Source: Crocinitomicaceae bacterium | Lineage (GTDB): Bacteria > Bacteroidota > Bacteroidia > Flavobacteriales_D > Crocinitomicaceae | DNA length: 64,000 nt | Direction of reading: 5' to 3' | Assembly: GCA_029249445.1 (NCBI GenBank) | Contig: JAQWHI010000003.1 | Span: 1-64,000, forward strand | Translations under genes and position numbers: made by a program | The notes under the pieces: model-generated | The model's database searches: none | Told to the model about the DNA's origin: nothing | Seen by the model: only the letters and a program-made list of their open reading frames with translations | Shown here: positions 45,177-63,421 of the stretch, in pieces | Layout of the letters: the number at the start of each line of letters is the position of its first letter | Position numbering within the stretch: position 1 is the first letter of the stretch

Positions 45177-45214
45177 AACAATTGGGGAAGCCTAAAACGC
45201 TTCCCCAATTGTTT
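45177..45214 (+). terminator. Rho-independent terminator after etfA
   Basis: Perfect stem ACAATTGGGGAAGC-N7-GCTTCCCCAATTGT followed by TTT. Confidence 0.8.
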
Positions 45215-56946: not shown

Positions 56947-56978
56947 AAAAAAACCATCATAATATGATGGTTTTTTTC
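56947..56978. terminator. Bidirectional Rho-independent terminator
   Basis: AAAAAAACCATCATAATATGATGGTTTTTTT. Confidence 0.8.
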
Positions 56979-60415: not shown

Positions 60416-60504
60416 TTCTACAAGAATTCTTCAACGAAACACCCTATCAGTGGGTTTTTAAATCGTTAATAAAAGCTAATACATCCGATGATATCGGAGA
60501 GAGA

Positions 60505-60535
60505 TTGTGTCAATAACTCATTTTGTTTAACTTTG
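60505..60535 (+). promoter_or_regulatory. Promoter of the gpx-SRPBCC-CIA30-photolyase cluster
   Basis: TTG (60505-60507), 20-nt spacer, TAACTTTG (60528-60535). Confidence 0.55.
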
Positions 60536-60557
60536 TTGTTAATTTGTTAAACAAAAT
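60520..60557 (+). promoter_or_regulatory. Perfect 12-bp inverted repeat (14-nt spacer) overlapping the -7 element: candidate operator
   Basis: ATTTTGTTTAAC (60520-60531) / GTTAAACAAAAT (60546-60557). Confidence 0.65.
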
Positions 60558-60569
60558 AGGTTTGATGTT

Positions 60570-61106
60570 ATGAGCATTTTTGATTTACTTTCACTCAGTC
60601 AGGTTCCAAAAGTGACATCGTCGGTACCAAGCAGCAGTATATATGATTTAAGCATAGGCTCCTTAGATGGAAAAACGATAAACCTGTCTGACTTTAAAGG
60701 AAAAAAAATACTATTTGTAAACGTTGCTTCGCGGTGTGGATTCACAAAACAATACAAGGGACTTCAACGCCTTTTTGAACAAGAAAGAGAACGACTTATA
60801 GTAATAGGTATACCTTGCAATCAATTTGGTCGCCAAGAGAGCGGGAGTTCAAAAGCGATTCAAAATTTTTGTAGCCGTAATTTTGGGGTTTCTTTCCCAA
60901 TCTCAGAGAAAATAAAAGTAAAGGGGACCAATCAACATCCAATTTATAATTGGCTAACCAACAAGCTATTGAATGGAGCGGTGGATTCAAAAGTGAAATG
61001 GAACTTTCAAAAATATTTAATCAATGAGGAGGGTGCATTGCAATCCATTTTCTCTTCAAAAATCGATCCTTTGTCAAAGGAGATCATCGATGCAATCAAA
61101 AAATAA
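60570..61106 (+). CDS. Glutathione peroxidase (Cys type)
   Basis: KKILFVNVASRCGFTKQYKGLQRLFEQ; VIGIPCNQFGRQESGS; VKWNFQKYLI. Confidence 0.93.
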   Translation: MSIFDLLSLSQVPKVTSSVPSSSIYDLSIGSLDGKTINLSDFKGKKILFVNVASRCGFTKQYKGLQRLFEQERERLIVIGIPCNQFGRQESGSSKAIQNFCSRNFGVSFPISEKIKVKGTNQHPIYNWLTNKLLNGAVDSKVKWNFQKYLINEEGALQSIFSSKIDPLSKEIIDAIKK

Positions 61107-61124: not shown

Positions 61125-61613
61125 ATGGAAATAAAAAAGCTTGCAGGTATCTACCAACTGAAAACAACACAATTTGTGGATGCGCCTATTGAGGAGGTAT
61201 GGGATTTTTTCAGCAAACCTGCAAACCTTGAAACGATTACTCCTGACAATCTCAACTTTTCTATCCGAAGCGAAACTTCTGACGTCATGAGAGGAGGTGA
61301 TGTTATCAGTTATAAAATCAAAATATTTCCACTCATAAAATCCAGTTGGCTAACAGAAATAAAGCATGTAGAGCACCGACGGGCTTTTGTCGATGAGCAA
61401 CGCATAGGCCCTTATAAAATTTGGCATCACCGCCACACATTTGAAGCCACTGACGGTGGAACGTTAATGACCGACGAAATTCACTTTCTTCCCCCTTTCC
61501 CCAAACTATCAGGGTTTCTTGTTCATCTTATGATTAAACCAAAACTAATTGAAATTTTTAGCCATAGAAAAGTCGTCGTAGATCAGCTTTTCAATACACC
61601 GAAAACAAAATAG
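61125..61613 (+). CDS. SRPBCC family protein
   Basis: LKTTQFVDAPIEEVWDFFSKPANLETITPDNLNFSI; RIGPYKIWHHRHTFEATDGGTLMTDEIHF. Confidence 0.85.
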   Translation: MEIKKLAGIYQLKTTQFVDAPIEEVWDFFSKPANLETITPDNLNFSIRSETSDVMRGGDVISYKIKIFPLIKSSWLTEIKHVEHRRAFVDEQRIGPYKIWHHRHTFEATDGGTLMTDEIHFLPPFPKLSGFLVHLMIKPKLIEIFSHRKVVVDQLFNTPKTK

Positions 61614-61624
61614 ACATTGGAGCA

Positions 61625-62119
61625 ATGTACATCTCCTCAAAAATATACGATTTCAAATCAAATCTTAGTCTTCGAAACTGCAGCAGTATAAATGATACAG
61701 TGATGGGAGGAATGTCGAGTTCTGAAATATCTATTACTACATCAGGTTACGGTGTATTTTCAGGTTCTGTATCCACGAAAAACAACGGAGGTTTTGCTTT
61801 AGTGCGTTGCCAGCTCAACCAAATATCAATTGGCCGAAAAAAAGCAATTGAATTACGCATCAAAGGTGATTCAAAAGTGTATCAATTAAGAATAAAAGAT
61901 CAATCAAATTTAGCGCATGGCTATGTCGGAAGTTTCCAGACTTCGTCCAAATGGGAAACCGTGAGAATTGAGCTGGCAAACCTCTATCCGAGTTATCGTG
62001 GAAGAAAATTAGCTTTACCGAATTTCAATGCAACAGTCATTGATGAAGTTTCAATTCTTATTGCGAACAATAAAAATGAATCATTTAAATTGCTCATCGA
62101 TACCATTCAATTGGTCTAA
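61625..62119 (+). CDS. CIA30 family protein
   Basis: SINDTVMGGMSSSEISITTSGYGVFSGSVSTKNNGGFALVRC; IELRIKGDSKVYQLRIKD; ISILIANNKNESFKLLIDTIQL. Confidence 0.85.
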   Translation: MYISSKIYDFKSNLSLRNCSSINDTVMGGMSSSEISITTSGYGVFSGSVSTKNNGGFALVRCQLNQISIGRKKAIELRIKGDSKVYQLRIKDQSNLAHGYVGSFQTSSKWETVRIELANLYPSYRGRKLALPNFNATVIDEVSILIANNKNESFKLLIDTIQLV

Positions 62120-62131
62120 ATAGTATACGTT

Positions 62132-63421
62132 ATGAAAACACCCATCTCGATTTTTTGGTTCCGCAGGGACATTCGTCTCCATGACAATACAGCGTTGAAT
62201 GCTGCACTTTCGGAAAACAAAAATGTACTGCCGATCTTTATTTTCGATACGACCATATTGGAGGAACTACCGCAAGATGACGCGAGAGTATCATTTCTTC
62301 ACAATTCCTTGAATTCCATTCACAACGAATTGAAAAAGCATGGCGCTTCATTGAATTGTCTATTAGGGAAGCCAATCAAGGTTTGGAAGCAACTCGCGGA
62401 TACATACGACATTCAAAATGTTTATTTCAACAAAGACTACGAACCTTATGCCAGAGAACGAGACAGTGCAGTGAGTTCTTTTTTATCAGACAGAGGTATC
62501 AAGGTTCTTACATTTAAAGATCAAGTGATTTTCGAGGAAGGTGAAATTGTAAAAAATGATGGAAAACCATATACGGTATACACACCGTACAAAAACAAGT
62601 GGTTGACAAAATTTTCAGATCAATACCATCCAGTAAAGTTGCAAATAGATCGCTTCTGGAAAACAACTTTTGACTTCCCAAGTCTAGAAGATATAAATTT
62701 TCAAGAATCAAAAATTAGCGTTCCTACTTTTGATCTATCCGTTGTAAAAACCTATACTGAAACGCGCAATTTCCCTTGGCAAAAAGGTACCAGTTCAATT
62801 AGTACGCACCTGCGTTTTGGAACTGTCAGTATTCGTGAAATTGTATCGAAACAGACCCCAGGATCTACATATCTTAACGAACTCATTTGGCGGGAGTTTT
62901 TCATGCAAATCCTCTATCATTTCCCAAAATCAGCTCACTCGAATTTTAAAACCAAATACGATTTTGTAGAATGGCGCAACAATAAGTTAGAATTTGATAA
63001 ATGGTGCACAGGTCAAACAGGCTACCCCATTGTTGATGCTGGGATGCGTGAATTAAATGAAACAGGTTTAATGCACAATCGTGTAAGAATGATCACCGCA
63101 GGGTTTCTTTGTAAGCATCTTTTGATTGATTGGCGCTGGGGTGAGGCCTATTTTGCTAAAAAACTGCTTGATTTTGACCTCTCCTCGAACGTTGGAAACT
63201 GGCAATGGGCAGCAGGGACAGGGTGTGACTCTGCGCCATATTTTAGAATATTCAACCCCGCTGAACAACAAAAAAAATTCGATGCCAAGTACTACTATGT
63301 GAACAAATGGGTGCCTGACTTAAATTCCTTCGACTACCCAGCGCCAATCGTCGATCACAAAGTTGCCAGAGAGCGCGCACTCACCGCATACAAGAAAGGA
63401 TTGAGCCAGATTAAAATGTAA
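62132..63421 (+). CDS. phrB: Deoxyribodipyrimidine photolyase
   Basis: SIFWFRRDIRLHDNTALNAAL; FDKWCTGQTGYPIVDAGMRELNETGLMHNRVRMITAGFLCKHLLIDWRWGEAYFAKKLLDFDLSSNVGNWQWAAGTGCD. Confidence 0.96.
   Translation: MKTPISIFWFRRDIRLHDNTALNAALSENKNVLPIFIFDTTILEELPQDDARVSFLHNSLNSIHNELKKHGASLNCLLGKPIKVWKQLADTYDIQNVYFNKDYEPYARERDSAVSSFLSDRGIKVLTFKDQVIFEEGEIVKNDGKPYTVYTPYKNKWLTKFSDQYHPVKLQIDRFWKTTFDFPSLEDINFQESKISVPTFDLSVVKTYTETRNFPWQKGTSSISTHLRFGTVSIREIVSKQTPGSTYLNELIWREFFMQILYHFPKSAHSNFKTKYDFVEWRNNKLEFDKWCTGQTGYPIVDAGMRELNETGLMHNRVRMITAGFLCKHLLIDWRWGEAYFAKKLLDFDLSSNVGNWQWAAGTGCDSAPYFRIFNPAEQQKKFDAKYYYVNKWVPDLNSFDYPAPIVDHKVARERALTAYKKGLSQIKM

Follow-up and report, generated by a model that had tools for sequence, protein, structure and literature searches.

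An inverted repeat over the promoter of a photolyase operon in a Crocinitomicaceae bacterium: a probable light-regulon operator with CarH/LitR-like MerR proteins as candidate binders

The closest described systems are CarH/LitR, light-sensing repressors of the MerR family that depend on B12, of Thermus thermophilus, Bacillus megaterium and Myxococcus xanthus. CarH operators are composed of 11-bp direct repeats with the half-site consensus TnnACA (PMC9304148). In Myxococcus, CarA is a B12-independent paralogue of CarH, and its operator consists of two inverted repeats, one of them over the promoter (PMC9304148). A blue-light response mediated by a MerR protein (VCA0056) and ChrR is described in Vibrio (PMC5241685). 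The regulation of proteorhodopsin is stated to be open (PMC3587595).

Here we consider an inverted repeat (the dyad) in a stretch of 64,000 nucleotides from a Crocinitomicaceae bacterium (contig JAQWHI010000003.1, positions 1 to 64,000; the window) and two MerR proteins of the same genome, MerR1 and MerR2. The system resembles CarH/LitR in the proteins, which have a MerR DNA-binding domain with an RxWExRY-type helix, a helical bundle with Wx9EH, a Rossmann domain with E-x-H and, for MerR1, the same predicted fold; it also resembles it in operators that lie over promoters, in carotenoid targets, in a regulator gene that itself stands behind the operator and in a half-site that fits TnnACA. Unlike the CarH operator with its three or four tandem 11-bp direct repeats, the dyad is an inverted repeat with a fixed 16-nt gap between its cores, and its consensus has no regular 11-bp direct repeats; the regulon, again unlike that of CarH/LitR, reaches proteorhodopsin, pterin and fasciclin genes and several photolyase-family genes. 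The dyad is closer to the described CarA operator than to the CarH direct repeats: the two inverted repeats of CarA may be compared with the tandem dyads reported below, and in both cases two paralogues occur in one genome. However, the Trp of Wx9EH is present in both MerR1 and MerR2 but absent from CarA. The Vibrio response is similar in that a MerR gene is predicted to share its operon with a photolyase gene and in that stress genes are induced by light (PMC5241685); it differs in having no proteorhodopsin, and the text of that paper gives no operator sequence (PMC5241685).

The dyad, ATTTTGTTTAAC-N14-GTTAAACAAAAT, occupies positions 60520-60557 of the window, and inspection of the sequence shows perfectly complementary arms. 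The left arm ATTTTGTTTAAC (60520-60531, plus strand) is the exact reverse complement of the right arm GTTAAACAAAAT (60546-60557, plus strand), which confirms the perfect 12-bp inverted repeat with N14 claimed by the sequence-only reading. The cores are TTGTTTAA at 60523-60530 and TTAAACAA at 60547-60554, and between the arms lies the 14-nt A/T-rich spacer TTTGTTGTTAATTT (60532-60545, plus strand). TAAACA is present in each arm and, as contained in the right one, agrees with the half-site TnnACA of CarH. The window has four perfect 12-bp inverted repeats whose loops are at most 30 nt long, against 0.18 expected from dinucleotide shuffles; if the gap must be exactly 14, there is one against 0.01 expected. 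One could appeal to the three other perfect 12-bp inverted repeats of the window and propose a chance repeat in A/T-rich DNA; this explanation is refuted by the recurrence of the dyad with a fixed gap and consistent targets, and we give it practically no weight.

Two further inverted repeats of the window, both perfect over 15 bp, may be recorded separately. The one at 56947-56977 has A/T tails and a loop of a single nucleotide and is probably a bidirectional terminator; the other, AACAATTGGGGAAGC, has a 7-nt loop (45177-45213).

The predicted promoter consists of a -33 element TTG (60505-60507, plus strand) and, 20 nt further on, a -7 element TAACTTTG (60528-60535, plus strand), a spacing that fits the Bacteroidota sigma-A consensus. 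Considering that the Bacteroidota sigma-A -7 box sits at -12..-5 (PMC9723704), transcription is predicted to start at about 60540, inside the spacer, which places the TTG at -35..-33. The -7 element overlaps the left arm; thus the claim that the dyad covers this element and the predicted start is borne out, the start itself being a prediction. With the start within the dyad, the transcript would carry the right arm only. This argues against a terminator or attenuator hairpin working in the RNA leader, which a perfect inverted repeat immediately ahead of the first gene might otherwise suggest. Scans for sigma70 promoters, terminators and Rfam families gave no match; the stem is A/T-rich, the motif is symmetric with its sequence and spacing fixed, and sites also serve divergent pairs of proteorhodopsin and blh genes. 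We therefore hold the RNA explanation to be very improbable.

The operon behind the dyad contains four genes on the plus strand. The first, gpx (60570-61106), encodes a glutathione-peroxidase family protein of the Cys type (PF00255, 9.9e-36); it is followed by an SRPBCC/polyketide-cyclase-like protein (61125-61613; PF03364, 1.3e-4), a CIA30-domain protein (61625-62119; PF08547, 1.4e-36) and a photolyase/cryptochrome family protein (62132-63421; PF03441, 5e-73, and PF00875, 2e-46). Pfam profiles thus agree with the earlier naming of gpx, CIA30 and photolyase, while the SRPBCC assignment is weak, its 22.6 bits falling just under the family cut-off of 23.4; homologues of this protein with 39-50% identity occupy the first position behind dyads in other genomes. 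As previously stated, no regulator gene is adjacent: the operon is flanked by RmuC upstream and GNAT downstream.

The sequence-only reading proposed that the genome be searched for similar sites, and the dyad does recur, ahead of carotenoid, photolyase, proteorhodopsin and stress genes. A pattern search found eight exact copies of TTGTTTAA-N16-TTAAACAA in the 2.33-Mb genome and none of the reversed-pattern control. When a gap of 4-34 was permitted, all eight matches still had a gap of 16; this search is the unbiased test of spacing, since gap counts from the fetched loci are biased, the loci having been picked by gap 16. One mismatch adds three further copies. Several dyads stand in tandem, mostly 42-45 bp apart. 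One dyad (contig C22, 118667-118698; 9668-9699 of locus L024) precedes proteorhodopsin, and others precede a second glutathione peroxidase gene, the pterin genes PTPS and folE, a fasciclin - TspO - MerR2 series, and an operon with a TetR_C_23/COQ9-like gene, an ABC1 kinase, DUF2805 and three photolyase-family genes. Beside the carotenoid (crt) cluster, sites are found near a flavin reductase and CIA30, and a degenerate copy stands ahead of crtI. The merR1 gene has a version with gap 17 ahead of it, over the promoter box TAATTTTG.

An exact dyad also lies 2 bp before the gene of a secreted protein of the T9SS type, 919 aa long and containing PKD domains (contig C9, 11260-11291; L022:7261), a target that one would not expect in a light regulon. 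Secreted fasciclin-domain proteins are recurrent targets too.

In 60 relatives (this genome included) we counted 86 exact dyads against one match of the control, and 144 of the 245 genomes of the order have the dyad against seven with the control. The distinct sites lie outside open reading frames in 99 of 100 cases, and 89 of 100 have a start no more than 150 bp away. The promoter box TAnnTTTG is found at the offset seen in the window at 7 of 97 oriented sites; at 29 of the 97 it lies 10 nt further upstream and shares the TTTG of the arm.

The scan of species genomes returned at least 120 exact dyads. Among the 120 matches listed, none is inside a gene, and nearly all belong to Bacteroidota (Flavobacterium, Kordia, Leeuwenhoekiella, Aquimarina, Dyadobacter, Algoriphagus, Chitinophaga and others). 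Genes directly next to the dyads of this list include crtI (28), fasciclin (14) and MerR genes, as well as SRPBCC genes (9, mostly with phr nearby), ECF sigma genes (22, mostly with crt genes nearby) and proteorhodopsin (5, of which four are divergent from blh). In Pricia, Croceivirga, Leeuwenhoekiella and L249 (loci L156, L182, L210 and L249), the dyad separates the proteorhodopsin gene from a divergently oriented gene for beta-carotene dioxygenase (blh). Genes of the regulon families are present at 104 of the 120 loci listed against 0 of the 62 ORFs that lie ahead of the operon in the window, a count that is supportive and not independent because the reference set of families was partly taken from dyad neighbours in relatives.

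Two observations from this material stand apart. In many Bacteroidota (L141, L158, L167, L173, L197, L217, L261 and others), the gene that immediately follows the dyad, between merR and crtI, encodes an ECF sigma factor, which suggests that the response to light involves a sigma cascade. In addition, a metagenome-assembled genome labelled Planctomycetota (Candidatus Kuenenia; L170) has a dyad with PTPS-folE at 66% identity, and this is probably a misbinned Bacteroidota contig.

The association was also approached from the genes. For 30 proteorhodopsin loci (the one in this genome included), the dyad was found at 10 with at most one mismatch and at 14 with at most two, the controls giving 0. 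For the 26 best orthologues of the window photolyase, taken essentially in rank order with 5 kb upstream, the figures are 3 and 6, respectively, and the association of photolyase with the dyad across orthologues is patchy. These 26 are the unbiased sample; the loci beyond them, several of which had been chosen with a nearby dyad already known, are disregarded, together with the Fisher values calculated with them. The photolyase test with 1.5-kb flanks is uninformative because the dyad of the window itself sits further off. The sequence-only reading had made its case depend on a dyad at orthologous clusters, and there is one: relative G012 retains the syntenic order RmuC, dyad, gpx-CIA30-phr, with the dyad at the operon. 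SRPBCC-TspO-phr operons with a dyad occur in relatives G018, G021 and G026. Taken as a functional operator, the dyad is in our opinion practically certain.

The regulator of LitR/CarH type proposed speculatively before is now well supported, both by the sites and by two proteins that are similar to CarH in size and have both a MerR domain and a CarH/LitR-like B12 domain, MerR1 (contig C10, 463959-464840) and MerR2 (contig C2, 233531-234418). The N-terminal MerR-type DNA-binding domain matches PF13411 at 3e-16 and 1e-13, respectively; both proteins exceed the cut-off of PF02607 and have an intact Wx9EH (WQLNTISVGHEH and WQVNSIKIVHEH). The PF02310 profile matches neither of them, and the domain was recovered by fold search with MerR1. 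By sequence, the closest PDB match of both is T. thermophilus CarH; the AlphaFold model of MerR1 (pLDDT 89.6) has its best Foldseek matches in CarH 5c8d/5c8e, with a full-length TM of about 0.5-0.6 and a target TM of about 0.8 for the cobalamin-binding domain. Identity to CarH/LitR in the fold alignment is nevertheless about 20%, and the CarH equivalog NCBIfam NF052513 gives 80.2 and 69.4 bits, far under its cut-off of 400; hence we term the proteins CarH/LitR-like and not CarH.

The dyad and the MerR gene are found together. In the order, 142 of 215 genomes with MerR have the dyad against 2 of 30 without it (Fisher 2.6e-10, phylogeny ignored), and in the genus set 18 of 22 against 2 of 12 (p = 6e-4); the start of the MerR gene itself carries a dyad in ten relatives. 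This bears on the proposal that another transcription factor, for instance the TetR_C-type protein, or an ECF sigma cascade reads the dyad and that the tie with MerR is indirect. Dyads do stand ahead of the TetR_C_23/COQ9-like gene and, in many genomes, of an ECF sigma gene; however, the presence of MerR predicts the dyad, ten genomes have it at MerR starts, ECF factors are not known as dyad binders, and the half-sites match the TnnACA of CarH. We consider such an indirect tie improbable, and a CarH/LitR-like MerR is very probably the binder, though as a candidate.

That the signal of the regulon is light appears quite probable to us, and that B12 senses this light is probable to a lesser degree. 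The motif D/ExHx2G/P - SxT/V - GG of the Rossmann domain is represented in MerR1 by EEHELG and GG, with no clear SxT/V, and Wx9EH and the axial-ligand E-x-H are retained in MerR1 and nearly all relatives. In MerR2 the B12 motif is degenerate (EEHEFS, SG), with neither the Gly of HxxG nor the GG; one paralogue may therefore no longer sense B12, and MerR2 is possibly, as judged from its sequence, a B12-independent form similar to CarA. In five genomes, this one and four relatives tested, merR1 is divergent from meaB, the gene of the methylmalonyl-CoA-mutase GTPase of adenosylcobalamin metabolism (L019:7830-8870 here; L104, L121, L128 and L144 in the relatives, where the dyad lies between the two genes). 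Together with a cob(I)alamin adenosyltransferase gene in the genome, this arrangement makes adenosylcobalamin plausibly available.

The same regulon operator could be used by a MerR that does not sense light through B12 but responds to singlet oxygen or some other photo-oxidative signal, to a photoreceptor that acts as its partner, or to the level of B12 as such. The degenerate motif of MerR2 and the position of merR1 beside the gene of a B12-enzyme chaperone, meaB, agree with this, as do the function of the M. xanthus paralogue CarA without B12 (PMC9304148) and the blue-light/ROS response mediated by the Vibrio MerR (PMC5241685). It is opposed by the conserved B12 residues of MerR1 and by targets that are mainly photobiology genes, and we believe it to be rather unlikely.

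We return to the light-regulon operator worked by a CarH/LitR-like MerR, with repression in the dark and release in the light, as the preferred explanation, with a probability of roughly 85%. From the overlap of the dyad with -7 boxes and starts and the analogy with CarH, we infer repression in the dark by occlusion and release in the light. The CarH/LitR-like proteins, encoded elsewhere in the genome, would bind TTTTGTTTAAC-N14-GTTAAACAAAA as dimers or dimer pairs; in the dark, the bound MerR would cover the -7 box and the start site, and the operon would stay off. On illumination, the form of the regulator held by adenosylcobalamin, presumably its chromophore, would be broken, and the protein would leave the DNA. 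Then gpx-SRPBCC-CIA30-phr would be switched on together with proteorhodopsin and with the other photolyase-family, pterin and carotenoid genes.

While a CarH/LitR light regulon is of a known kind, the operator design, the link with proteorhodopsin and the breadth look new. In the open literature searched, we found no description of the motif or of a CarH-type regulator for proteorhodopsin in Bacteroidota. We are inclined, with somewhat better than even confidence, to the view that, in much of Bacteroidota, proteorhodopsin, the synthesis of retinal and carotenoids and the photorepair of DNA form a single regulon that a CarH-like B12 photoreceptor controls directly by means of a previously undescribed inverted-repeat operator, and that in some species a second paralogue no longer senses B12. 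With the operator defined to 32 bp, a candidate photoreceptor and a list of targets, the light control of proteorhodopsin in Bacteroidota becomes directly testable. Many ocean bacteria must get vitamin B12 from other organisms, and a regulon of this kind would tie the vitamin to the use of light in an abundant marine group.
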